IMG/VR virus record: IMGVR_UViG_3300027816_000369
Span: 1-26,022 of that record
Source of the DNA: a virus
Length of the DNA stretch: 26,022 nucleotides
Reading direction: 5' to 3' (one strand)
Position numbers and translations under genes: made by a program. The stretch's first letter is position 1. Every line of letters starts with the position of its first letter. The notes under the pieces were generated by a model. It made no database searches and was not told the DNA's origin. It saw only the letters and a program-made list of their open reading frames with translations. Positions 990 through 25,372 of this stretch are shown in pieces.

Positions 990-3476
990 ATGTCACAGGA
1001 CAAGCTACTAGCTCTAGCACTAGAGCGCCTTGAGGCTATTCAGCGCAAGGAAGCTTTCGATCCTGCACATTTAGATTCCAGACCTACTGCTGCACAACAA
1101 GAATTCTTCAATGAATTCGGTGTATATAAGCAGTATTATTTAAGGGCCGGCAACCAGTGTTTAGCTAAAGGCACCTTAGTGGCTACGCCTACAGGCCCAG
1201 TGGAAATTGAAAAAATTAAACCGGGAGATATTGTTTACTCAGAACACGGTCAACCTATTTCTGTATTAAAGACTTTTTCTAACGGAGTTAAATCTGTGCA
1301 AGAACTAGTTTACAGAAATGTTAGGTGGGCATCTGCTACAGATAATCATGTATTTCAAGTAATTACACCTTATGGCCATTTAGTAGAAAAAGCTGTTAAA
1401 GATTTTGGAAGAGACGATAAGGTGGTTCGAGTCCAAGTAAAGGCCCCTTTAGGTAAAATTAGTTTTCCTCAAGCATATGCATTGGCTGCCATGCTGGGAG
1501 ACGGATGTTCCAGACAAACCCACAAATATCTTCAAATTAGCTCAGGCACACCCGAAGTTCCAAATAAAGTAGCCTCTATTTGCGAAAGCACCGCACGTAA
1601 ATTACATGAAAGTAATTATACTTGGTCAGTAGGATATGTAGATATTCCCTATTATGCAGAATGGTGTAAAGGCAAATATGCTCATGAAAAAATAGTAGAT
1701 TTAGAAGTTCTTAAAAAGTGGGATAGGAATTCCCTATTAGAATTTGTAGCGGGGCTAATTGATACAGACGGCACTGTGTATTCCGCAAAAGATCATGTTA
1801 CCTTATCTTTAAACATGCAGGCAAAGTCTGTTGTAGACGCATTTGCCTATGCCGTATTAGCCTTATGGCAAATACCATTAAATAGATCCCTAGATTCTAG
1901 AAAAAAATATAAGAATGGACCAGTCCATATTGCGTATACTAGAAATATTCACTTTATTAAGGAAATTCTAGATGAGTTAAATCCCTATCTTGCATCCCCA
2001 CAAAAGAAGTGGAAAGAAGAGTATAGCAGTATTGGCGGGAAAAGAAGTAGCAGCAGTAATGTGGCTATTGGTCCTTCCGGAATTACTCGAGAAGTAGAGA
2101 CTTATGATATCCATGTAGACTCTTCAACCAATTTATATTTGCTAGCCAATGGATTAGTTACTCATAATAGCGGTAAATCTCAAACAGCTGCCCGCATGCT
2201 TACTCAAATTCTTTTAGAAGATCACGAGTTAGTTAAAAAGAGACGGGCCGAATCAGGCCAGCAGGGATGGGGCAGTGAGCCACTACTTGCAATCGTCGCA
2301 GGTCGTACCGGAAAGCAGCTGGAAGATTCGCTTCTTCCGAAGATTCGTAGCTACCTAGAACCGGGAACCTACAAAGAAGTTCGTATGGGTAACGCCATAC
2401 AACGTCTAGAACTAGACAATGGAAACAGAATAGTGTTCCAGTCCCTAGAAAATCCCAATACTGCCCGTGAGAGGCTGCAATCCTACGTTGCCCATGTCAC
2501 ATGGGTAGACGAATTGCCCCCCACGCTGGACCTTATTAGAGAGGTTCTGGTTCGTACTCAGGCCCGGAATGGTTACTCCATATTCTCATTTACCCCACTT
2601 ACCGTAAACGTAGGCATTCAGAGATTTGTAGATGCAATCGAGCCTCCGGAGGGTAGGGTTTACCGATTTAAAATGCTAGATAACCCTCTCTACTCCGACC
2701 CACAGCGTCGTGAGGAGCTGATTCGTCGTTACGCCCACCTTCCCCAGTACCAGAGAGATGCTATTTTCGAGGGCGACTGGATGACGGCTGAGGATCAGGT
2801 GTACCATTTCGACTATGAGACAATGGTAGGTATGCCGGAAGGCTATAGTCCCATGTGGCGTCACGTAGAAGCAGTAGATCCAGCTATAAGTTCAGCTACT
2901 GGCCTTACAATCTGGGCCGAAAATCCAGATACCTCCAAATGGTATTGCATCCTATCCGAGTATATCAAGGGCATTCAGGTGCCTACCGACATTGTTAAGG
3001 CTGTTCAGTACTATACATCTAAGGTGAACATAGTTCGACGTATTTCTGATTATGCCCCGTGGTATGTCAACACAGCTGCCTCTATGGGCGTGACCTATAT
3101 GACGGTAGACTCCAAAAATGCTAGCCGTAAGGAAGAATTAATTAAGAATCTACAAGAATCCCTCGGTAAGAATATGATAATTACTCCAAATTGTCAGGGA
3201 CTTATAGACGAATTGCAGAACTGTAGATGGTCTGACCGTGGGGAGGGAAAGATAGTAAATTCAAGTACTTATCACCTATTAGACTCTGCACAATATGCAC
3301 GGGATACTCTACCCCCTGCAGAAAAAAAGCTGCAATCCTTTACAGTTAATCAGTGGTATGCTACACTTCTACAGGCTAACGAGAAGCGAAAGCAGCTCGA
3401 AGAAAAGGCTGCGGAAAAACAAGCGAAACCCCGGGGAAGACCCACTAGAATTAAACGAGGTGTCATGTGGCGATAG
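990..3476 (+). CDS. terL: Terminase large subunit precursor interrupted by an intein
   Basis: The DNA-packaging motor that cuts concatemers and pumps DNA into the head by ATP hydrolysis. The 828-residue product consists of a 56-residue N-terminal extein, a 337-residue intein (57-393) and a 435-residue C-terminal extein, giving a 491-residue terminase after splicing. Joining Q56 to S394 restores the Walker A motif GNQSGKS. Walker B is VTWVDE (D507, E508), and FSFTP (532-536) is a likely coupling motif. The RNase H-like nuclease has acidic residues at VEAVDP (D630), ISDYAP (D687) and HLLDSAQYA (D765). The C terminus is basic (RGRPTRIKRG). The start has only a weak ribosome site and lies 3 bases after the previous stop, so translation is probably coupled. 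Its end overlaps the small gene at 3467. Without splicing the ATP site is destroyed. Confidence 0.96.
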   Translation: MSQDKLLALALERLEAIQRKEAFDPAHLDSRPTAAQQEFFNEFGVYKQYYLRAGNQCLAKGTLVATPTGPVEIEKIKPGDIVYSEHGQPISVLKTFSNGVKSVQELVYRNVRWASATDNHVFQVITPYGHLVEKAVKDFGRDDKVVRVQVKAPLGKISFPQAYALAAMLGDGCSRQTHKYLQISSGTPEVPNKVASICESTARKLHESNYTWSVGYVDIPYYAEWCKGKYAHEKIVDLEVLKKWDRNSLLEFVAGLIDTDGTVYSAKDHVTLSLNMQAKSVVDAFAYAVLALWQIPLNRSLDSRKKYKNGPVHIAYTRNIHFIKEILDELNPYLASPQKKWKEEYSSIGGKRSSSSNVAIGPSGITREVETYDIHVDSSTNLYLLANGLVTHNSGKSQTAARMLTQILLEDHELVKKRRAESGQQGWGSEPLLAIVAGRTGKQLEDSLLPKIRSYLEPGTYKEVRMGNAIQRLELDNGNRIVFQSLENPNTARERLQSYVAHVTWVDELPPTLDLIREVLVRTQARNGYSIFSFTPLTVNVGIQRFVDAIEPPEGRVYRFKMLDNPLYSDPQRREELIRRYAHLPQYQRDAIFEGDWMTAEDQVYHFDYETMVGMPEGYSPMWRHVEAVDPAISSATGLTIWAENPDTSKWYCILSEYIKGIQVPTDIVKAVQYYTSKVNIVRRISDYAPWYVNTAASMGVTYMTVDSKNASRKEELIKNLQESLGKNMIITPNCQGLIDELQNCRWSDRGEGKIVNSSTYHLLDSAQYARDTLPPAEKKLQSFTVNQWYATLLQANEKRKQLEEKAAEKQAKPRGRPTRIKRGVMWR
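1158..2168 (+). mobile_element. Intein with LAGLIDADG homing endonuclease in the terminase Walker A motif
   Basis: 337 in-frame residues with all the marks of a class 1 intein. Residue 1 is Cys (TGT at 1158). Block A is CLAKGTLVATPTG, and the KPGDIVYS segment (21-28) follows. Block B has T-x-x-H (TDNH, 61-64). The C terminus ends in VTHN, with penultimate His and terminal Asn, followed by Ser as the +1 extein residue. Two LAGLIDADG helices are present, YALAAMLGDG (107-116) and FVAGLIDTDG (196-205), with acidic residues D115 and D204 in the places expected for catalysis, so the endonuclease looks intact. Codons look richer in A and T (TTA, AAA, ATT) than in the flanking terminase, consistent with horizontal arrival. 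Inteins are known to favour P-loop ATPases; homing would target intein-free terL alleles. Splicing itself is inferred. Confidence 0.96.
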
Positions 3477-3601
3477 TATGGTTGTACATTCTTACAATAC
3501 TTCTGCCCGTTCACTTTCTTATCGCTAAACGAGCCATAGACGAGCGCAAGAGAACTAAGAAAATTCTTGTCTCAATATGGAAATACTCTACTAGGAGGTA
3601 G
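3467..3601 (+). CDS. Small single-pass membrane protein, 44 residues
   Basis: A short gene whose stop TAG (3599-3601) lies one base before the next ATG. It starts with GTG inside the last codons of terL, in a different frame, with GAGGT at 3457-3461 ending 5 bases upstream. The product begins MAIVWLYILTILLPVHFLIA (first 20 residues), a clear hydrophobic membrane helix, followed by a strongly basic tail (KRAIDERKRTKK, then KILVSIWKYSTRR). The layout suggests one membrane span with a positive cytoplasmic tail. It fills almost the whole gap between terL and the next gene, and the AGGAGG inside its last codons serves the next gene, so the frame is maintained on both sides. I do not recognise it. 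A single-span holin or accessory lysis protein is possible but unproven. Confidence 0.68.
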   Translation: MAIVWLYILTILLPVHFLIAKRAIDERKRTKKILVSIWKYSTRR

Positions 3602-3602
3602 T

Positions 3603-3881
3603 ATGCAGTTGAAAATTCTTCTAGCCACGGAACCACCTTCCAAGGAAAAAACAAAAGACTGTGCATGCAAGGACGACTTGCCTAGCATTGAAGACGATGT
3701 TCGTGAGGCTTTGGAATTAATTGATTCCGGCCACGATTCTTATATAGAGTGGAAGATGATTAATAAGCTTGCTCGGGAATTGAGAAATCGTAAAGATCCT
3801 CGTAGTAAGAACTTAATGAGTATGATTGATCCAGTGCTGCAAAAGTATGGCATGCACGGGGTTGAGGAAAAGGGAGAATAA
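3603..3881 (+). CDS. Small hypothetical protein between terminase and portal
   Basis: A 92-residue acidic helical protein, counted from the ATG at 3603. An AGGAGGT at 3593-3599 lies just upstream, with a short 3-base gap. An in-frame TTG at 3567 would add 12 residues but has no ribosome site and would overlap the small membrane gene, so I prefer 3603. The N-terminal part contains KDCACKD, two cysteines close together. The rest (SIEDDVREALELIDSG, then EWKMINKLARELRNRKD) is predicted as three amphipathic helices. I do not recognise the family. It stops 3 bases before the portal start and so is probably part of the packaging operon; a small head-assembly factor would fit the place. There is no membrane or signal segment. 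Confidence 0.75.
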   Translation: MQLKILLATEPPSKEKTKDCACKDDLPSIEDDVREALELIDSGHDSYIEWKMINKLARELRNRKDPRSKNLMSMIDPVLQKYGMHGVEEKGE

Positions 3882-3884
3882 CCA

Positions 3885-5888
3885 GTGGCTCTCAAAATTA
3901 GTATTTGGAATAATGACAAGGCTAGGGCAGAAATCCTAAAGCGTTTTAGCAATGCTACTAGGGATCGCTCAGTTCACGAAGCTGTCTGGCGTCAGAATGA
4001 GAGAACAGTATATTCCTCTCTAGGAACTCGTAATTCCCTATCAACTAATATGACTCTGGACTTCCCTCTTACTGAAGTCCTATCCAATATTGACCAATCA
4101 AATGCAGATGTATCGACAAGTTATGTAATGAAGAACTTACGCTTCATTCATGCACAGATGTCTTCTAATCCACCAATGATTGCGGTCCGGCCTCAGACTT
4201 CCGATCAGGACGATCAGAGAAAAGCTGACGCTGCAGATCGTATCGTCAAGTGGGCACTACGTAAATATCAGTTGCAGGAAAAATTCGATCAGGTCAATCT
4301 AATGACTCTTGTGTATGGTACAGGGCTCATTAAGACTGTCTGGGATTCCTCGAAAGGCGACATCATCGAGGCAGACATGGAGACCGGAGAGCTTACTCTC
4401 GAGGGCGACATAGATATTACTATTCCTTCCACATGGAATATCTTTATAGATCCAGATGCTCGCAGCTGGGACGACGTTAAATGGGTAATTGAGCGTATCT
4501 ATATTGACTACGAAGAAGCTGTGTCTAGATGGCCTGAGAAACGGGATGAACTAGATCAGGCTCGTGTGCAGGAAAAGACACCTACTTCTACCGGACAGCA
4601 AACCGAACTTCGTGACATGCACTACAACTCCGTAGAGCTATTGGAATATTGGGAAACTGGATTGCCCACTAACGGATATCTAGGTCGATACTGTATTACC
4701 ACAGTCTCTGGCGAAATCATTGAGTCCCCACGCCCAAGTCCCTTCCGATTTAAGAGACAAGGTGCGGCTTCGAAAATAGAAGCATCTGATCTTCCCGACG
4801 AAGTTAAGATGAGACGCATTGAGAAACTACCAGAACAGGCAAATCTTCCATATCATTTTATTACGGACCTCGATGTGCCTAATACTTTGTGGGGCAAGTC
4901 GGCAGTTGAATATGCTATGACTTTGCAGAACAACCTGAATCGTCTCGATGCCAACAGGCTAGATAATATTCAGGCACACGGCGCAGCTCGTATGATCCTA
5001 CCGGAATCGGCAGAAATTTCTGATGACGCATTAGGTAACAGTCCGTGGGATGTAATTAAGATTACAGGCAACCAGCCTCCTTATTTTATGTCGGCACCAC
5101 AATTGCTTCCAGAACTGTCTAGCGAAAGAAACAACTACATTCAGGGAATCAATGATGTCATGGGCGTCAATGAGTCCATGTTCGGTCAGCAATCTCGTGA
5201 GCAATCCGGCGCATCTATGCAGTATGCTACCAACCAAGGTAACATGATTCGTCACCGTCTATTTAATAAATACGTAGCGTGTGTGGAATCGGTATATAAG
5301 GCGCTGTTAAACCTAGCACGTAAGCACTGGTCTATCAGTCGAACCATTCACGTCCTCGGCAAAGAACAAGCCCTAGAAGCTACCGATGTCAAGGGTATGG
5401 ATATTGATGGCGGCTTCGATGTTGTAGGCGAATATGGTACTACCTTGTCCCTAGACCCCATTACCCGCCAACAACAAATTATTACACTGCAACCTCTGTT
5501 CGAAAAAGCCGGAGTAGACAGCCGGGTACTTCTTAAGAAACTGAGGCTCAATGATCTCGAAGGTATCTTCGATGCATTCGAATTGGCAGGACACAGACAG
5601 AAAGAAATCTTCGATGAGATGATTGCTACAAATATTTATATCCCACCCGAAGAGCAAATGGATCACGAGAACATGATTGCATGGTCTCTTAGATATTTTA
5701 TGACTCAGGAGTTTACTGCACTGTCTGCAGAAGTTAAAGCACTACTCAAGCAACATAACAAGGACCGAGCCGCATTGGCTGTTAAGGAAAAGGGCGGACA
5801 GGCGGCAGGCCCAATGGAAGCTCCGGGAACAGAACCGCAACCTCCGGGAGGAGCAATGCCTCCCGCACCACCACTACCACAGGGGTAA
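3885..5888 (+). CDS. Portal protein
   Basis: The 667-residue portal forms the dodecameric ring at the packaging vertex. It is the DNA channel and the docking site for terminase and, later, the tail adaptor. The assignment rests on the run from residue 84 to about 155 (NLRFIHAQMSSNPPMIAVRP, a charged helix, then LMTLVYGTGLIKTVWD), which is typical of podoviral portals, and on the conserved region around IQGINDVMGVNESMFGQQS. It is also supported by the place directly after terminase and before scaffold and capsid. The C-terminal 30 or so residues are rich in Pro, Gly and Ala and probably disordered. Start: GTG with GGGAG at 3872-3876, 8 bases upstream. Length is within the normal portal range, and no frame damage is seen. 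Confidence 0.93.
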   Translation: MALKISIWNNDKARAEILKRFSNATRDRSVHEAVWRQNERTVYSSLGTRNSLSTNMTLDFPLTEVLSNIDQSNADVSTSYVMKNLRFIHAQMSSNPPMIAVRPQTSDQDDQRKADAADRIVKWALRKYQLQEKFDQVNLMTLVYGTGLIKTVWDSSKGDIIEADMETGELTLEGDIDITIPSTWNIFIDPDARSWDDVKWVIERIYIDYEEAVSRWPEKRDELDQARVQEKTPTSTGQQTELRDMHYNSVELLEYWETGLPTNGYLGRYCITTVSGEIIESPRPSPFRFKRQGAASKIEASDLPDEVKMRRIEKLPEQANLPYHFITDLDVPNTLWGKSAVEYAMTLQNNLNRLDANRLDNIQAHGAARMILPESAEISDDALGNSPWDVIKITGNQPPYFMSAPQLLPELSSERNNYIQGINDVMGVNESMFGQQSREQSGASMQYATNQGNMIRHRLFNKYVACVESVYKALLNLARKHWSISRTIHVLGKEQALEATDVKGMDIDGGFDVVGEYGTTLSLDPITRQQQIITLQPLFEKAGVDSRVLLKKLRLNDLEGIFDAFELAGHRQKEIFDEMIATNIYIPPEEQMDHENMIAWSLRYFMTQEFTALSAEVKALLKQHNKDRAALAVKEKGGQAAGPMEAPGTEPQPPGGAMPPAPPLPQG

Positions 5889-5892
5889 ACAC

Positions 5893-6093
5893 ATGGATAC
5901 TTATGAAGAAAAATTAAAAAAACTTCGTCAGAGCTACAATAAGAAGCTTGGTATTGATGATAAGAAACAAATGGAAGACAGTAATAAATCTGTATTTGAG
6001 CGGCTGCGTGAGATGTTTGGATACACTGCTCCGCCTCCTGCTAAAAAGAAAAAGTCCGGAGACTCCGGAACTGCAGATAATGATATCTCGTGA
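5893..6093 (+). CDS. Small basic hypothetical protein after portal
   Basis: A 66-residue, strongly charged protein. Residues 1-42 form one or two amphipathic helices (EEKLKKLRQSYNKKLG, then FERLREMFG). The rest is a disordered-looking Pro/Lys/Ser/Gly tail (APPPAKKKKSGDSG). Start: ATG 4 bases after the portal stop, with AGGGG at 5881-5885, 7 bases upstream. Its last 14 bases overlap the start of the peptidase gene at 6080 in another frame, so the two are likely translated in a coupled way. I do not recognise the family. Small basic proteins at this place in the operon may act in head assembly, but nothing in the sequence fixes a role. Confidence 0.7.
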   Translation: MDTYEEKLKKLRQSYNKKLGIDDKKQMEDSNKSVFERLREMFGYTAPPPAKKKKSGDSGTADNDIS

Positions 6094-6460
6094 CGAAATT
6101 CTAATGGGCCGAGACAAGCAGTATCCTCTAGACGGTACTCTGCAGGTCAATCTAGAAAAGCTACTACGTGCAGTAAACAAGTTTCGTGCCGTTTGGGGCA
6201 AACCAATGAAGGTAACTTCGGGCTACCGTCCGGCAGCCATTAATGCTACAGTTAAGGGCGCAGCTACTAAATCAAATCATACTGTTTGTTTAGCGGTTGA
6301 TTTCGCAGACAGTGACGGAAAGTTGGCGGAATACTGTCTTAAGAACTTGAAATTATTAGAAGAATTTGGTATATGGCTAGAAGATCCAGCATTTACAAAG
6401 GGTTGGGTACACATGCAAGTTGTACCCCCACGTTCGGGCAGCAGGGTATTTAAGCCTTGA
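6080..6460 (+). CDS. M15-family zinc peptidase, probable endolysin
   Basis: Predicted to cut peptide bridges in peptidoglycan, most likely for host lysis. The frame is open from 5948, but I choose the ATG at 6080 (126 residues). The upstream part codes for nothing domain-like and runs through the previous gene, while this start overlaps that gene's end by 14 bases, with CGGA 10 bases upstream. The domain fills the whole protein: VTSGYR (45-50), the zinc signature H67-x6-D74 in SNHTVCLAVDFAD, and the third ligand H111 in GWVHMQV. This matches the short, single-domain M15 peptidases of phages. There is no signal peptide, so a holin would be needed for export; the nearest candidates are the small membrane gene at 3467 and the holin-like gene at 17559. 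A virion-associated peptidase is an alternative. Confidence 0.85.
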   Translation: MISRDEILMGRDKQYPLDGTLQVNLEKLLRAVNKFRAVWGKPMKVTSGYRPAAINATVKGAATKSNHTVCLAVDFADSDGKLAEYCLKNLKLLEEFGIWLEDPAFTKGWVHMQVVPPRSGSRVFKP

Positions 6461-9165: not shown

Positions 9166-9765
9166 ATGCAGTATATTATTTATGGACTAGTCGATCCGGA
9201 AACAGACGAACTTAGGTATATTGGAAAATCTATAACAGGAATGAATAGGCCCAAAAAACATTTTTATCCTTCGACCTTAAAGTCGGAGCGAACATATAAA
9301 AATAAATGGGTAAATTCAGTTTTGAAAAGATGTGGAAAGTTGCCCAAAGTAGCAATTCTGGCTGAAGGAACGGATGAAGTTAGTTTAAATAAATTAGAAA
9401 TTGAGTTTATTGCTCATGCTCGAAGTTTAGGAATAAGGCTAACAAATATCCAAAATGGTGGAGATGGGTTTACTTCTGAGCTAGCAAAACTGGCACGACA
9501 GAAAACCGATCGAAGTGCTTGGGTAAAGGGCGGAAAGGCCGCAGCTGCAAATGGAACATGTGCTCGAAACAACTTGAAACTCAGGAGACCAATAGTTGCT
9601 ACCCATGTAAAAAGTGGAGAACAGCGTTGGTACTTAAGTGCAAGTCATGCAGCAGCAGATGGTCTAGGAAGCAGGTCGGCAATTTCAAATGCCCTTCGTC
9701 CAAATTGGAGATGTAAGCACAATAAAGGCTGGACATTCCAATATGCAAGTAATCTCCCCGCCTAA
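9166..9765 (+). CDS. GIY-YIG homing endonuclease, free-standing
   Basis: A 199-residue selfish nuclease that would cut related phage DNA lacking it and so spread its own gene. The N-terminal GIY-YIG domain shows IYGL (5-8) and RYIGKS (17-22), a basic helix after it (MNRPKKHF, with R28 a candidate catalytic Arg), and LNKLEIEFI with glutamates at 78 and 80. The segment TNIQNGGDG (93-101) is typical of these enzymes. A linker (WVKGGKAAAANG) leads to a C-terminal DNA-binding module (141-195: RPIVATHVKSGEQRWYLSAS, then an AISNAL helix and GWTFQYA) resembling the NUMOD1 repeats of homing nucleases. Start: ATG with AGGAG at 9153-9157. A/T-rich codons contrast with the capsid gene upstream, indicating recent arrival. 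The frame is complete, so it may be active. Confidence 0.92.
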   Translation: MQYIIYGLVDPETDELRYIGKSITGMNRPKKHFYPSTLKSERTYKNKWVNSVLKRCGKLPKVAILAEGTDEVSLNKLEIEFIAHARSLGIRLTNIQNGGDGFTSELAKLARQKTDRSAWVKGGKAAAANGTCARNNLKLRRPIVATHVKSGEQRWYLSASHAAADGLGSRSAISNALRPNWRCKHNKGWTFQYASNLPA

Positions 9766-18168: not shown

Positions 18169-19155
18169 ATGCCACGACTAAATTATACTGTTGAAAACCT
18201 TGTAGAAGAAATAAGGCAACAGCTCGATGAGATGAATAGGGACTCTGTTTCCACAGAAGCAGACATACTTCCTACTCTCAATCGTGGCTGGGACTTTGCT
18301 GCCGATATTCTCAGCCGCAAATATCCGGAGCCACTGCTGCAGTATTCTACACTGGATCTGCAAGCTGGTGTATTCGAATATGACATTCCCGAAGATGTCT
18401 TCGAGGATCGTATTCTCAAGTTGGAGACAACTGTGCCGGTGGGTACAGGTCGTGCCAACTATATAGAAATCCAACGGATTAGCTACCGAGATATTACCAA
18501 TTACGAATCCGCAGCTATTAGCTCATTCCCCCTATACTACTGCATTATCGGAAGAAAGATTCGAATCGTACCGCAGCCATCTGGCTCCTACGATGCCCGC
18601 ATGTGGTATATACGTAATCCGGAGAAACTTGTCTTGCCGCAAGGCCGAGTAACTCTTATTAATTCTGCAAGTAATTATATTATTGTAGACGAAGCAGATG
18701 GAAACCTTACAACCCAGTCCGATCAATTGGCCTCCTATGTAAATGTGATTGATGGGCAGACTGGTGAAATTAAGGGATCACTTCAGATACAATCTATTGT
18801 AGACAATAAGATTACCTTTAGGGCCTCTCCGGCACGTACTAATGTTTTTAATAGAGAAATTGGCAATACTCTACAAGATATACAGATTCAGCCAGATGAC
18901 TACATCTGTGCCATTGACGGCATTTGTGTGCCATACTTCGGCCGTCCTACAAGTAACTTTCTAATTCAGTACGCTGTATCTGAGATTACTCGTAAGCTTG
19001 GTGGACAGGCAGAAACTGAGGAAGCTATCCTTAAGAAGTTCGAACAGCAGGTTGAAAGAAGCTGGGTAGGTCGTCAGCAGGAACTTCGTGTCAAGAAAAA
19101 GTCAAATGTCTGGGGAACCAATACTCGCCGCTACTGGTGGTATTGGAGCCGTTAG
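18169..19155 (+). CDS. Head-tail adaptor (tail tubular protein A-like)
   Basis: A 328-residue protein expected to bind below the portal and carry the tail nozzle. The N-terminal part (1-60) is helical with VENLVEEIRQQLDEMNRDSV and ILPTLNRGWDFAADILSRKY, as in T7 gp11-like and P22 gp4-like adaptors. The middle (about 60-230) is beta-rich with PEPLLQYSTLDLQAGVFEYD and SGSYDARMWYIRNP. The C-terminal part returns to helix (SNFLIQYAVSEITRKLGG, EEAILKKFEQQVERSWVGR). It ends with an aromatic and basic tail (RRYWWYWSR) that could plug the channel or contact the portal. Start: ATG with GGAGG (18159-18163), 5 bases upstream. The assignment also rests on the order adaptor, then nozzle. Its last 12 bases are duplicated 65 bases downstream. 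Confidence 0.8.
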   Translation: MPRLNYTVENLVEEIRQQLDEMNRDSVSTEADILPTLNRGWDFAADILSRKYPEPLLQYSTLDLQAGVFEYDIPEDVFEDRILKLETTVPVGTGRANYIEIQRISYRDITNYESAAISSFPLYYCIIGRKIRIVPQPSGSYDARMWYIRNPEKLVLPQGRVTLINSASNYIIVDEADGNLTTQSDQLASYVNVIDGQTGEIKGSLQIQSIVDNKITFRASPARTNVFNREIGNTLQDIQIQPDDYICAIDGICVPYFGRPTSNFLIQYAVSEITRKLGGQAETEEAILKKFEQQVERSWVGRQQELRVKKKSNVWGTNTRRYWWYWSR

Positions 19156-19234: not shown

Positions 19235-19369
19235 ATGCCTTTAGCTAAAGGATCTAGCGATAAGACTGTATCGAAGAACATTCGCAAGCTGCGAGAAGAA
19301 GGATATCCACAAAAACAATCTGTAGCTATTGCTCTCGAAAAAGCAGGTAAGTCTAGAAAAAAGGACTAA
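19235..19369 (+). CDS. Small basic protein resembling the DUF6496 family
   Basis: A 44-residue, highly basic protein ([20 protein letters not shown], then [20 protein letters not shown] and RKKD). The pattern KGSSxKTxSKNI, a short helix, and PQKQxVAIAL is one I remember from many phage and bacterial miniproteins grouped as DUF6496; the name is from memory. Their role is unknown. Start: ATG with AAGGGA at 19221-19226, 8 bases upstream. It is the first of three small basic genes in a row. The compact basic helix could bind nucleic acid or an acidic partner such as the product of the 17866 gene, which is only a guess. Confidence 0.75.
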
Positions 19370-19375
19370 CGTATT

Positions 19376-19501
19376 ATGGCGGCTATACAGAAAATGAGAG
19401 ATAAGATGCCCTGCTGGAAAGACTACGAAATGGTCGGAATGAAAGAGGGCAAAGGCGGAAAGAAGGTACCTAACTGTGTGCCTAAGAAGAAAAAAGGATA
19501 A
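19376..19501 (+). CDS. Small two-cysteine basic protein (VPNCVP motif)
   Basis: A 41-residue protein with MPCWKDYEMVGMKEGKGGKK (residues 11-30) and VPNCVPKKKKG, with cysteines at 13 and 34. The pattern C-W-x-x-Y-x-M-x-G-x-K, a Lys/Gly run, and VPNCVP recurs in phage miniproteins as far as I recall; no function is known to me. It is very basic. The cysteines could form a disulfide or half of a metal site. Start: ATG with AAGGA at 19360-19364, 11 bases upstream. Its stop is directly followed, without a gap, by the ATG of the next small gene. Confidence 0.7.
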   Translation: MAAIQKMRDKMPCWKDYEMVGMKEGKGGKKVPNCVPKKKKG

Positions 19502-19756
19502 ATGCCCATGGCTGTTGTTGGTAAAATGAAAGACAGAATGCCGTGTAACAAACCTCGTCGGGATGTAAAGGGCGGTAAGAAGTCTGTAGTTAAGGCATGT
19601 GAGGACGGAGAAGAGAAGATCATTCGCTTCGGAGACGCCAACATGACTATTAAAAAGGATAAGCCAGCACGTCGCAAGTCTTTCAGGGCCCGTCACAAAT
19701 GTGACCAAAAGAAATCTAAACTCTCGGCAGGATATTGGTCCTGTAAGGCATGGTAA
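19502..19756 (+). CDS. Small basic protein with four cysteines (IIRFGD and RARHKCD motifs)
   Basis: An 84-residue basic protein. Visible motifs: MPCNKPRRDVKGGKKSVVKA (13-32, so the first part resembles its upstream neighbour), KIIRFGDANM (39-48), RRKSFRARHKCD (57-68) and GYWSCKAW at the end. Cysteines lie at 15, 33, 67 and 81 with H65, enough for one zinc site. The IIRFGD, F-x-A-R-H and YW-x-x-K-x-W pattern recalls the DUF5872 group of phage and giant-virus proteins; this is from memory and not certain. Start: ATG directly after the preceding stop, with AAGG about 5 bases upstream; a second ATG at 19508 is possible. Nothing shows what it does. A nucleic-acid-binding or virion-packaged role is conceivable. 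Confidence 0.72.
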   Translation: MPMAVVGKMKDRMPCNKPRRDVKGGKKSVVKACEDGEEKIIRFGDANMTIKKDKPARRKSFRARHKCDQKKSKLSAGYWSCKAW

Positions 19757-19759
19757 TAT

Positions 19760-20182
19760 ATGTCATTAGATAGACTTGCAATCGGCCTTCGAGCACTGCA
19801 GATGTATGGACAACATGCCCATAACAATTGTACAGGCAAGTCTTTTGTTCCAGATCACGACTTATTTGCAGCTTCCTACGAGGCGGCGGCGACAGACTAC
19901 GATGCCGTGGTTGAGCGTATAATAGGCACTACCGATAGACCTGTAGATACCCTTGCTATTATTCCCGAAGCCCTTAAGCTTGCATCTCAATGTAGCCGTG
20001 AGGCGGGAGACTGCAATGTAGAGTTTCTTCGTGGTGTACTAAAACTGGAACTAGCTATTTGTATATACATAGATAAGACCTGTGCCGCAGGTGAACTGCC
20101 CGAAGGTACAAAACAATTGATTGGCGATATAGCCGACCGCTCTATGTCAAGGCAATATAAGCTACGCCAAAGACTCAAGTAA
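19760..20182 (+). CDS. Dps/miniferritin-like four-helix protein
   Basis: A 140-residue helical protein. Residues 11-53 (LRALQMYGQHAHNNCTGKSF, then H33, D48, E52) fit the Dps ferroxidase pattern: H21-x4-G26-x2-F29-x3-H33-x14-D48-x3-E52-R53. That is exactly the spacing of H51, H63, D78 and E82 in E. coli Dps. The residue matching D67 is A37, so one ligand is missing. Dps proteins form 12-subunit shells that oxidise and store iron and protect DNA. This protein is shorter than bacterial Dps (about 165 residues) and lacks a basic N-terminal arm, but ends basic (RQYKLRQRLK). It stops 9 bases before the nozzle gene. Start: ATG 3 bases after the previous stop, with a weak ribosome site. Role in the phage is unknown: iron handling, DNA protection or a purely structural bundle. 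Confidence 0.6.
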   Translation: MSLDRLAIGLRALQMYGQHAHNNCTGKSFVPDHDLFAASYEAAATDYDAVVERIIGTTDRPVDTLAIIPEALKLASQCSREAGDCNVEFLRGVLKLELAICIYIDKTCAAGELPEGTKQLIGDIADRSMSRQYKLRQRLK

Positions 20183-20191
20183 GGGGTCCTC

Positions 20192-23100
20192 ATGGCAATT
20201 CAATATACAATCGTCCCAGAAGTAGACTTTAGTAGAGGCATTGATGCTCGCTCTACTGAAAATCAAATTGGTGAAGGCTTTGTTCGAGACCTACTAAATG
20301 CAGACGTAATTCAGAAAAGCGTCCGCAAACGAACAGGCTACGAATCTTATGCTGGAAATATTCCAGTTCGAGCTACCCGCCTCGATTACGACTACAACGT
20401 AGATCCCACTAAGCGGATGATGTGCCTAACTTTAGATAGCGTTGTCTCCCTTAATACTACCGTTTCTTTAGAATCAGTAAGAAGTTCTCCACTTATTGTA
20501 TACGGCCGCTCGTCTAACCAGACTACTGGGCCTATTACAAATGCAGGAGACTCCGCTCATTATTACAATAGATTTACTATTCCTATTCGCAAAGAGCTAT
20601 TTGCCCCGAGCGGGACATTAAACATTTCCGGCACAGAACATGGTCTGGGAAGTACTAACTTTTTTTGTAATGTAGTAGAATCCACTTCTTTAACTGACAA
20701 GTCATTTACTGACGTATATACAAATGCGCTACGTATTGATAAGATGACTTACGATGTAAATATTGATTATACTGTTTTTCAGAATAAGAATGCAATTGTA
20801 TATTACTTAGATCGAGCCGTTTCAGCTGGAGACGTATATACAACTACGTGGGCTCATCCGGGTGGAATTAGTTCCCTGCCTATCCCCACGTCTACTCACA
20901 ACCTTACAAACTATAATTTTGTATATAAAATATATCAGGACACAAATCCCGGAAATTCTACCGGAGAGTGGCTTGAAGTTGTTGAAGATGAGTTTACTAT
21001 TGACAATAATGGTAATGTATTAATTACTATGACAGCGGCTTCCCCCACTACATACCATATTATACTCTCTGCCGCCGCTACAACCAATGTAGTCGAGGGA
21101 CAAATATCTTCCGCCGAAGACGAAAAGACCGTATCTATACCAAACCTAGTCCGTCCTTGGATGTTCTATAATATATATATTAGAAAAAATGCTACAGAAT
21201 ATGAGCGTGTTGAAGCTAACGCCATAGATTATGACAATGATACAAACTCCTTAATTCTAACTTTTGATACATATAGTGCTCAATCTTATAAAATACACTA
21301 CGAATATGGCGATATTAGAAGTAACGTATTGTGTGTATACGATACTGCTGTAGCTGTAGACAGTACGGATACTTCTCCTCAGATCACTATTTGGGGACTA
21401 GATCACAATGAAATATATACAGATAAGTCAGTTCGAGAAGGCTGGGCTACACATATAGATACTTACCGACGTAGCGGGGAGCAGCGAGTTATTTGCGGTT
21501 TGGGCGGCAATTTATTTGCAGCCAGAGAGTATTCCGAAGCCGGCAGTCAATATCTCTATCCGACATTGTATCCCTCCTTGTACTCTCGTACATCTGCTGC
21601 TCTTTCGGTTGGACCTGTGTTTTATGACACTGGAGACAATCCACAGAGAACTAGAGGATATATAACTACAAGTATTGGCGGTACGGGACAAGTTTACGTT
21701 ACTGCTGTCCAATATGATCCGGCAAATACGTGGACTAAATATACTCTAGATGTACCGGATATGAACATTGTGGGTACACTATCTACAATTATAAGTAATA
21801 CCGCCGGATTAGAAGACTGGCTAACAGTAAGCAACATGTCCTACAAAAGACATGAGGGTACTTTCCGAATTAGACAAGTTACTCCCGGAGTAGAGAAGTT
21901 AGAAATTTGGGTAGAGAATTCAAACAATTCGTCCGATTGGGATGATCTAGCTGTTGGCGGATATGCGGGAATTTACACCGACCGAATTACATGGACAACA
22001 GACGCTTCTTATGTTCCCCAAGATACTTTACTTCTATCTGGGTCTGAATTGGGCCAAGTATATTCTAGCGATGACGGCATTACTGTTTGCGGTCCATTTA
22101 ATCAAAAATTAGAACTTGCTATCGGTGTTCTTGTTACAGGTCGCCGCACCTCCTCTGTTATTCCATTACGTGAATCTTTGCCTTCCTTAGCAGACTCTGT
22201 TGCTAATCTTGTTCGTGGCGATATGCTCAGTTATACTGGCATAGACCGGAGCCTTAGAGTACTATCTATAAATGCGGGGACAGATTTATCTGCTTCTATT
22301 TCCGGAGATGGTACAACCGCAACCTGTACTGTATCCGATACCACTTATTTATCTGCTGGACAGAAGATTGTAATAATTGGAGCTAGTGATTATTCAGGCG
22401 TTCAGACTATTACCAATGTAATTTCATCTACCCAGTTTACATTTGAAAGTACTTCCACTAAGCTGGGGGTTACTGCAATTCTATCGGGGAAGACCATTGA
22501 AATCGATGAGGAGCTGATGTGGCAGGATACGGTGGGAGATCAGGCGGGCTTTCAAGTAGCTCGTAGATGGGTTCCCATTGAAGCTCCTGATGATTCATAC
22601 AACTTAACTCCATCTACATATGTTAGATATTTCGATTCGGCTCAATACTCGGCCCAGCCGTTTATTAGATCTACAATGGTTGCCGATAACCTATATCTGA
22701 CTAATGGTTCGGATGAGGTAATGAAGTTTGATGGGGAGAGCATATACCGGGCCGGGCTTCCGGCATGGCAGCCGGGATTATTTGTTACCCGAGATACCAG
22801 CGTCGGTATTCCTAAAATTGTAGTGAACCTTAGATCAATGGCATATAAGGCAAAACCGGGTTCAGGTACATTAGAATTGACCAAGGTTGAAGAGGCGGGG
22901 TTGTTGCCTCCGGGAAGCACTGTAGAAATAACTGGAGATACCACTAAGATATATACAGTGCAAGATTATGTAGACAAGGCTAACCAAGCTTTTGTTCATT
23001 TTAGTCAATCCTTAAATCCTGCAATTCCAAATATTGGGACCATTTCTGAAGTAGGATACTATCGATACTATATTAGGCTCAATGCTATAGATGCTAATAA

Positions 23101-25372
23101 TAACAGAATAGCTTCGGCGATGACTTCTTCGGAAGATCTAACGGTACGTATGTCGCAGGATGCAGCAATTAATTTAAAAATGGTTGGTCTGCCAGCTCTA
23201 GACAATTACGACTATGACCGTATCGAAATTGAGATATATAGAACCCGCCTACTTACAGGCACTGTTCCACCTGTATTTTATAAAGTAACTACATTAGGTA
23301 GCGAGCATATAAACTTTAATAATGGCGATGGATATATAGAATATACAGACACTGCCTCTGATGATAATATTGCTTTAAGAAACAATTTAGACCCTCTAGT
23401 TACTCAAGCGGGAGCAGAGCTTGGTATTGGCTGGAGTGATCCTTTACGAGCCAAGTATATTACTACAACAGCAAATAGACTTGTCCTTGCAAATGTCAGT
23501 GATTATCCAGAATTTGATATTCAAATAGACGGAGCTTCTACTGCATTAGATGCTTCCAAATTTGTGGGTAATACCTTTCTATTCCGTAAGAATTTTGCAG
23601 ATTCTGCGTCTTCTTCTAATATGGTAGACCGAGTTAACTTTAAATGGGTTCAAGCATCTAGTTCTATAGCCGTTACTAATTTAGTCGGAGTTGCTAATAC
23701 CTCTTTTACTGTAACGGTAAATAATACGGCGGCAATTGGTGACTGGGTATATTTGTATTACTCTCAAGTACTAAACACTGGGCAACCTTTAAAGTATTCT
23801 GGATGGTGGCAAGTATTCAGTAGAACTTCAACGACCATTACATTTACATATAAAAATGCCAGTGCGGGAACTCCTGCAGTATATCCAAATCGAGCAGCAT
23901 TTGCTGACTCTGGAATAGTGCCAGTAGTTTTAGGTACTGATGGAAACTTGGGGCAGGATAATGGAGATAGCGGGAGCCCTGTAACTAATGATACCTTCGA
24001 TGCGACCCGCCGTCTTGCGCTTGCCTTAAACTCGGTAATGAGAATGACTGATATTACCATTCCGGCAATGGCAAAATTCCGCCCATGGTTGATTGCTCGA
24101 AGCGGCAACGATGTTAGTAGGGCCGGACGAATCTTAGTTCGAGCGCCACAACAATCCGATATTCTTCCTTCAATACAGGCTACTTTCACTGCTTATGATC
24201 TATATGTAAATTCTTTGCCAGTAGAAACTGGGGATAATACTCCGGCATCGGAGCGTGTTTACCCCAGCCGTGTACTTATTAGCTATGAAAATAATCCAGA
24301 ATTATTTGACAGCCCTACGGTTATTCTAGACTCGGACTCCCTATCGGCCATAGATATTAACCCGGCTGATGGTCAGGAAATCACAGGCGTAATTCCGTTC
24401 TTCGGAGAAACCGCATTTACTGCAGCTCAACAAGCGGGCATCCTTGTAGTATTCAAGACTAATTCTATTTACCTAGTCGATATCAATCAGAAAGTATCTG
24501 GAAGTAATTTAGTAGTGCAGCGTCTGGAAACTCAAGGGCTTGGGTGTACCGCCCCCTACAGTATTTCTGTTACTAAGAATGGCATAATGTTTGCTAACAA
24601 TTCCGGTATATATTGTTTACGTAGAAATCAAGCTATTGAATATATTGGCAAATTTATGGAACGTAATTGGACTAGCAAAGTTGACAGGGATGCACTGCAG
24701 ATAGCACAAGGTCATCACTATAGTGTGGGTCGAATGTATAAGCTGTCTGTTCCAATTGCCGATACACAAAATGAGACTACCGGATATATCGAACCTTCCC
24801 AAGTCTATGTATATAACCATACACAGGAAGACGAGGAGCAGCATTTAGGTGCGTGGAGTCGTTATGATAACCATACCGCAATAGGATGGGCTAATCTCGC
24901 TTCTGACGCATTCTGGGCATCTACTGGTGGGAGCATATATAAACTTCGCTCTACTGGCTCAGGGACCGATTTCCGGGATTCCAATGAGGCAATTACATTT
25001 AGGCTGGATACTCGTCCCAACGACTACGGGAACTCCGGTATCCGTAAAATATTGGACAAAGTGGTAGCAAGCTATCGAGCCGGTACTAAAACAGCCAGCA
25101 ATACTATGCTCTTTGCCGTAGACCTAGAACAGGAATACTTTGCAACTACCCCATTTAGGGTGGCAGGAACTGCAGAAAATCTTAACGGTCTCGATGACTT
25201 AGTACAAAAAGATGTTGTAACACTACGCCATTCCTTAGACCGACGTAAGGGCGTATACTTCTCTATTCGTATAGAAAACAGCAACTTAGATCAGAACGTA
25301 GAAGTAGCAGGTCTGGATTACCGTGTCGGTGCATTGGATACTAAGGGTATTAAGTCGGCCTCCAAGACTTAG
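20192..25372 (+). CDS. Very large tail nozzle protein (tail tubular protein B-like)
   Basis: A 1726-residue beta-rich virion protein. The N terminus (VDFSRGIDARSTENQIGEGF, then LLNADVIQKSVRKRTGYESY) carries the signature of podoviral nozzle proteins such as T7 gp12, which begin with a GG-x-S/D...VNG/NAD...KRPG-like pattern. Repeated beta-strand blocks follow, suggesting beta-propeller and Ig-like inserts (for example around 700-760, SISGDGTTATCTVSDTTYLS). A C-terminal region from about 1410 (NNSGIYCLRRNQAIEYIGKF, LGAWSRYDNHTAIGWANLAS) resembles the last propeller blades. T7 gp12 has about 800 residues, so this one is twice the usual length. It follows the adaptor after four small genes. Start: ATG with AAGGGG at 20181-20186, 5 bases upstream. 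A multi-domain hub or fibre-bearing role is the alternative. Confidence 0.75.
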   Translation: MAIQYTIVPEVDFSRGIDARSTENQIGEGFVRDLLNADVIQKSVRKRTGYESYAGNIPVRATRLDYDYNVDPTKRMMCLTLDSVVSLNTTVSLESVRSSPLIVYGRSSNQTTGPITNAGDSAHYYNRFTIPIRKELFAPSGTLNISGTEHGLGSTNFFCNVVESTSLTDKSFTDVYTNALRIDKMTYDVNIDYTVFQNKNAIVYYLDRAVSAGDVYTTTWAHPGGISSLPIPTSTHNLTNYNFVYKIYQDTNPGNSTGEWLEVVEDEFTIDNNGNVLITMTAASPTTYHIILSAAATTNVVEGQISSAEDEKTVSIPNLVRPWMFYNIYIRKNATEYERVEANAIDYDNDTNSLILTFDTYSAQSYKIHYEYGDIRSNVLCVYDTAVAVDSTDTSPQITIWGLDHNEIYTDKSVREGWATHIDTYRRSGEQRVICGLGGNLFAAREYSEAGSQYLYPTLYPSLYSRTSAALSVGPVFYDTGDNPQRTRGYITTSIGGTGQVYVTAVQYDPANTWTKYTLDVPDMNIVGTLSTIISNTAGLEDWLTVSNMSYKRHEGTFRIRQVTPGVEKLEIWVENSNNSSDWDDLAVGGYAGIYTDRITWTTDASYVPQDTLLLSGSELGQVYSSDDGITVCGPFNQKLELAIGVLVTGRRTSSVIPLRESLPSLADSVANLVRGDMLSYTGIDRSLRVLSINAGTDLSASISGDGTTATCTVSDTTYLSAGQKIVIIGASDYSGVQTITNVISSTQFTFESTSTKLGVTAILSGKTIEIDEELMWQDTVGDQAGFQVARRWVPIEAPDDSYNLTPSTYVRYFDSAQYSAQPFIRSTMVADNLYLTNGSDEVMKFDGESIYRAGLPAWQPGLFVTRDTSVGIPKIVVNLRSMAYKAKPGSGTLELTKVEEAGLLPPGSTVEITGDTTKIYTVQDYVDKANQAFVHFSQSLNPAIPNIGTISEVGYYRYYIRLNAIDANNNRIASAMTSSEDLTVRMSQDAAINLKMVGLPALDNYDYDRIEIEIYRTRLLTGTVPPVFYKVTTLGSEHINFNNGDGYIEYTDTASDDNIALRNNLDPLVTQAGAELGIGWSDPLRAKYITTTANRLVLANVSDYPEFDIQIDGASTALDASKFVGNTFLFRKNFADSASSSNMVDRVNFKWVQASSSIAVTNLVGVANTSFTVTVNNTAAIGDWVYLYYSQVLNTGQPLKYSGWWQVFSRTSTTITFTYKNASAGTPAVYPNRAAFADSGIVPVVLGTDGNLGQDNGDSGSPVTNDTFDATRRLALALNSVMRMTDITIPAMAKFRPWLIARSGNDVSRAGRILVRAPQQSDILPSIQATFTAYDLYVNSLPVETGDNTPASERVYPSRVLISYENNPELFDSPTVILDSDSLSAIDINPADGQEITGVIPFFGETAFTAAQQAGILVVFKTNSIYLVDINQKVSGSNLVVQRLETQGLGCTAPYSISVTKNGIMFANNSGIYCLRRNQAIEYIGKFMERNWTSKVDRDALQIAQGHHYSVGRMYKLSVPIADTQNETTGYIEPSQVYVYNHTQEDEEQHLGAWSRYDNHTAIGWANLASDAFWASTGGSIYKLRSTGSGTDFRDSNEAITFRLDTRPNDYGNSGIRKILDKVVASYRAGTKTASNTMLFAVDLEQEYFATTPFRVAGTAENLNGLDDLVQKDVVTLRHSLDRRKGVYFSIRIENSNLDQNVEVAGLDYRVGALDTKGIKSASKT

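Follow-up and report, generated by a model that had tools for sequence, protein, structure and literature searches.

What does a phage gain from a Dps-like protein in which one ferroxidase ligand is replaced, and is the protein a miniferritin at all? The question is raised by a short gene lying among the virion genes of the window (the whole stretch of viral DNA analysed here, 26,022 nucleotides), which an earlier note had read, from the DNA alone, as a protein with the ferroxidase spacing of E. coli Dps but with Ala in place of D67. The open reading frame runs from an ATG to a TAA and specifies a product of 140 residues:

19760..20182, + strand: Dps-like miniferritin gene (ORF, PHROG 3636, clade profile, AlphaFold2, VIA-align)
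19820..19822, + strand: codon of H21, at the E. coli H51 place (alignment)
19856..19858, + strand: codon of H33, at the E. coli H63 place (alignment)
19868..19870, + strand: codon of A37, at the E. coli D67 place, which holds Ala or Gly in 6/6 members of the branch described below (alignment)
19901..19903, + strand: codon of D48, at the E. coli D78 place (alignment)
19913..19915, + strand: codon of E52, at the E. coli E82 place (alignment)

The ligand register of E. coli Dps

The reference used for the alignment was E. coli Dps, the sequence of which is identical to that of PDB 1dps chain A. H21, H33, D48 and E52 register without a gap with H51, H63, D78 and E82, as do G26, F29 and R53 with their counterparts, and A37 falls at the place of D67; both parts of the initial description are thus borne out. 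The H-x11-H-x14-D-x3-E spacing turned up in 34 of 200,000 shuffles of the window protein and the spacing of all seven residues in none of 200,000. The four-residue spacing is displayed by 11 of the 2,343 unique ORFs of at least 60 aa in the collected loci, all 11 being Dps-like by profile or alignment.

Family membership and predicted fold

The window gene is almost certainly a true, though distant, member of the Dps family. With the single sequence, PHROG 3636 ('DNA binding protein') matched at E=2.9e-5 and a PDB search placed 5lbh first (7.5e-4), followed mostly by Dps chains; the Dps models of NCBIfam were reached at E values of 0.003–0.02, far below cut-off, and a Pfam search with the window protein alone gave no match, Ferritin model PF00210 included. 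As these Pfam and NCBIfam results are too weak alone, membership was settled by profiles. PF00210 matches six of nine aligned homologues at E<=1 (best 9.4e-23). A two-sequence profile matched 44 PDB sequences, nearly all Dps, and the profile of the six-member branch retrieved almost exclusively Dps chains, with E values down to 4e-10 for the best of them, NpDps4 (residues 9–137).

AlphaFold2 models of the monomer, built from nine alignment rows (pLDDT 95.9, pTM 0.91) or from the six branch rows only (pLDDT 94.4, pTM 0.89), display identical helices: A (2–23), B (29–58), BC (64–75), C (84–109) and D (115–139). Both are Dps-like four-helix bundles with a BC helix, a short helix in the BC loop being typical of Dps. 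VIA-align superposes 135 of the 140 residues on Microbacterium Dps 2yjj (Z 19.2, rmsd 1.7 Å), with Z scores of 18.0 for mini-bacterioferritin and 17.3 for NpDps4; Foldseek E-values are only about 1e-3, and the best 50 matches are Dps proteins. Since mini-bacterioferritin also scores high, the fold by itself is not decisive, and it is the sequence profile together with the ligand pattern that speaks for Dps.

A branch of Dps proteins found in phages

Homologues were gathered by scans with Dps queries and via the neighbouring 84-aa gene. Their identity to the window protein is 70% for L005, 43% for L025 and its identical copies, 45% for L095, about 42–44% for L099 and 32% for L101. H21, F29, H33, D48, E52, R53, D32, Y40 and G56 are invariant in 6/6 branch members, so that the four ligand residues are kept down to 32% identity; the ligand places H21, H33, D48 and E52 are also invariant in 17 phage Dps-like proteins. 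Neither of the two outcomes named in the earlier note as refuting its reading, a predicted structure other than a four-helix bundle or homologues without H21, H33, D48 and E52, was thus observed. The D67 place is occupied by A, A, G, G, G and A in the six members, which implies that the loss of D67 is not peculiar to the window phage. On this point the earlier note has to be amended: its miniferritin reading stands as regards the Dps fold, the single changed canonical ligand place and the virion gene block, but the change is branch-wide. Note that the D67 place is also Gly in two further phage Dps proteins, those of L012 and Synechococcus phage S-SRM01, and Gln in that of L030; phage Dps has thus lost D67 repeatedly. 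The window branch is the only one in the compared set without the Trp of HWN, which is missing from all its members.

In the tree, the six members are monophyletic (support 100/99) and separate from cultured-phage Dps; the neighbour of the branch is NpDps4 (support 90/86), in what is a small, thinly sampled tree with a partial NpDps4 sequence. No close relative of the branch was found among 50,697 phage records, and no cellular or prophage relative in a scan of genome contigs; judged by these sequences, the branch appears in phages only. Substitutions between the window and L005 genes (nonsynonymous 0.22 per site; synonymous 3.2, near saturation) show, on sequence grounds, purifying selection on the Dps gene, with no exact ratio being given because the synonymous sites are close to saturation.

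A ligand-poor metal centre and its proposed role

With A37, the window protein departs from the canonical carboxylate centre, which has Asp or Glu at 67. The His-type ferroxidase centre, defined by His at 78 and represented by NpDps4 and TeDpsA (PMC6675082), was rejected as well, D48 occupying that place. NpDps4 from Nostoc punctiforme (PDB 5hjf/5hjh/5i4j) is nonetheless instructive: its Asn67 binds no metal, yet Fe2+ is oxidised with O2, His63 being a direct ligand and the use of H2O2 not being observed (PMC6675082). The absence of D67 is therefore compatible with activity. NpDps4 resembles the phage branch in being its best profile match, in its non-acidic residue 67 and in its HEFFNESY stretch, similar to HAFFGELY of L025. 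It differs in that it is a cellular cyanobacterial protein and that its centre carries further changes, with His78 and His164 as extra ligands (PMC6675082), whereas position 78 is still Asp in the phage branch.

We propose, with about even confidence and chiefly from sequence comparison, that the gene encodes an accessory miniferritin of the Dps type, made late, whose ligand-poor centre serves to oxidise iron and retain it. Judging from the gene order, the protein would be made late in infection from the virion operon, and its subunits would assemble into a Dps-type dodecamer. Fe2+ would be bound at each dimer interface by H21 of one subunit and D48, E52 and H33 of the other, site B being presumably weaker for want of the D67 ligand; at a centre so modified, iron would be oxidised, perhaps, as in NpDps4, by O2 rather than H2O2, and then stored. 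Storage would in turn lessen Fenton damage to phage DNA during head filling. The protein would act in the infected cell, probably as an accessory factor dispensable for some phages of the group.

Gene setting and the possibility of a virion-borne Dps

The neighbours of the Dps gene in the window are the following:

18169..19155, + strand: SU10-type adaptor protein gene (Pfam SU10_adaptor, E=1.2e-11; PHROG 2941)
19235..19369, + strand: small basic protein of 44 aa; in L095 and L098 the gene immediately preceding Dps encodes a close relative (ORF)
19376..19501, + strand: 41-aa small basic protein (ORF)
19502..19756, + strand: 84-aa basic protein of the phrog_7595 family, very widespread in environmental phages (PHROG)
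20192..25372, + strand: 1726-aa presumed tail nozzle, a conserved neighbour (position only)

The gene lies 3 bases after the stop of the 84-aa gene and 9 bases before the ATG of the 1726-aa gene. The three small basic proteins mentioned in the earlier note do precede it, and its placing in a virion gene block, with the 1726-aa gene next, is correct; the name 'nozzle' is given only by position after the SU10-type adaptor, as the 1726-aa protein has no Pfam or PHROG family match, and searches for nozzle and portal in phage records gave no match. The portal gene of the window phage is of the P22/SU10 type. A promoter scan found sites no commoner than in shuffles, and none on the + strand directly before the Dps gene. 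A single scan gave at least 589 relatives of the 84-aa protein, spread over many phage contexts that are unrelated to one another.

L005, L025 and L095 have the same succession of adaptor, basic gene(s), Dps and giant gene, which makes four lineages with the window included. L015 and L016 display the same neighbours without the Dps gene, which marks this gene as accessory. Among the other loci, L030 and the L023–L027 copies are biased for position, having been reached first via the virion-side 84-aa gene; the position-unbiased loci, found with Dps queries only, are L011, L012, L095, L099, L101, L112, L114, L115, L116 and L125. In these, the Dps gene lies (i) between the head-tail connector and the protease/major head protein in L011; (ii) between the small and large terminase in L012, upstream of the large terminase and portal in L115 and L116, and beside the terminase in L099, where it is divergent; (iii) after a virion structural gene in L125 and among tail genes in L101; (iv) beside fibre-like genes on the opposite strand in L114, L112 offering no clear setting. 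Cultured phages examined have Dps with nrdD, thioredoxin, dCTP deaminase or tRNAs, or, in S-SRM01, near a porin gene. In this small and unevenly sampled comparison, uncultured-phage Dps is thus often found in packaging, head or tail blocks, as opposed to the nucleotide-metabolism or tRNA setting of cultured phages. Two loci call for a remark: the Dps gene of L114 (5953-6423), of the HWN form, sits on a 578-kb viral contig, and L023, a contig of 6 kb, carries the same Dps ORF twice in inverted orientation (2004-2426 and 3570-3992), which probably reflects a palindrome made in assembly.

The virion-gene setting could indicate a part of the particle instead of an enzyme acting in the cell. A Dps-like protein enclosed in the virion or fixed to it, as head cargo or in the neck, would carry iron or guard DNA in the particle and on entry, a role that we regard as unlikely. 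It would account for the gene lying, in the window, L005, L025 and L095, with the adaptor-side genes on one flank and the presumed nozzle gene on the other, and it agrees with the head, packaging and tail settings of Dps in L011, L012, L125, L101, L115 and L116 and with the Dps-like folds that BFVD lists in proteins named prohead protease. Gene order, however, is not incorporation; no targeting signal was identified, and the near relatives L015 and L016 argue that a particle can form without Dps. In SU10, a different Dps (gp67) was detected by mass spectrometry of a phage sample (6 peptides, 35.8% coverage; PMC4281155). That sample had been precipitated with PEG but not purified on CsCl, and DNA polymerase and thioredoxin were present in it too (PMC4281155), so that the peptides indicate that the protein is made, not that particles contain it. 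A literature search for a virion-borne Dps found no paper, gp67 of SU10 being the only proteomic hint.

The wider proposition that this phage miniferritin branch, and possibly phage Dps domains broadly, have been recruited into the virion as head cargo or in the neck is likewise doubtful. If true, such particles would bring along, beside their DNA, a cage that oxidises iron. That Dps genes of environmental phages are associated with blocks for packaging, head and tail makes miniferritin action at or in the particle a testable case, one with a bearing on how phages protect their DNA from iron-driven damage. Four BFVD entries, A0A6J7WPK9, A0A6J7XDU5, A0A6J7WIS1 and A0A6J5LAB8, have Dps-like folds within larger uncultured-phage proteins, which are named prohead protease or ParB/sulfiredoxin; it is possible that they are domain fusions linking Dps to head assembly.

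Less likely readings: loss of iron chemistry, DNA coating, chance resemblance

Seen from the metal centre, the absence of both D67 and the HWN Trp might instead point to a decayed or changed site. The Dps fold would then have outlived its iron chemistry, the helical bundle being repurposed as a part for structure or assembly, or as a scaffold whose metal site is dead. Both losses extend across the whole branch (with Ala or Gly for D67) and the late-gene setting would suit such a repurposing, but the other four ligands are invariant at 32–70% identity, although much of the protein varies, a constancy that makes little sense unless metal is bound, and NpDps4 functions without an acidic residue at 67. 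We therefore hold this explanation to be rather improbable.

The protein might also act mainly by coating or compacting DNA, with iron chemistry secondary. Dps of some other organisms binds DNA, and the end of the C-terminal helix is basic, with Y133, K134 and R138 invariant. However, helix A begins at residue 2 in the AlphaFold2 models, leaving no flexible basic N-terminal tail, and the computed pI of the window protein is 5.9. For want of the tail, an E. coli-like mode of DNA binding is unlikely and was rejected as the main role, and DNA coating in general seems quite improbable. As for a chance motif in a protein that is not a miniferritin, for which the missing Pfam match of the single sequence and the modest Foldseek E-values could be invoked, it was rejected as barely credible in view of the profile match to NpDps4, the whole-chain fold match, the ligands invariant in independent homologues and a spacing specific to Dps-like ORFs.

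Comparison with known Dps proteins

The window protein shares with E. coli Dps (1dps) the H51, H63, D78, E82, G, F and R places and a four-helix bundle with a BC helix, but lacks D67, the HWN Trp and the N-terminal DNA-binding tail, and is only 19% identical to it. Cultured-phage Dps proteins of phrog_3636 (GAP52, SU10, 7-11, Privateer and Lactobacillus phages) belong to the same PHROG and have the five invariant residues in common with it; those included in the alignment retain Trp next to the first His and, in nearly all cases, D67 (Gly in S-SRM01). Relatives of the GAP52 protein occur in 134 phage records. Dps and Mn-catalase are also described in gut phages of the 'Gratiaviridae' and 'Flandersviridae', where phage Dps is proposed to lower oxidative damage in the host (PMC8008677); compared by description, the part of that source considered here notes no ligand change or virion-operon position. 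Phage Dps is already known; the window branch stands apart by its ligand set and by its position in a late operon.

Other features of the window

The large terminase gene (990-3476) contains an intein: residues 57-393 of its product match Hint, intein splicing and LAGLIDADG models, and from about residue 392 onwards the product matches terminase again. After the 450-aa gene, a 199-aa ORF (9166-9765) starts with IIYGLVDPETDELRYIGKS, which by sequence resembles a GIY-YIG homing endonuclease. Finally, positions 5948-6460, between the portal gene and the 374-aa gene, give a Peptidase M15 match (E=8.8e-12) and may encode an endolysin.
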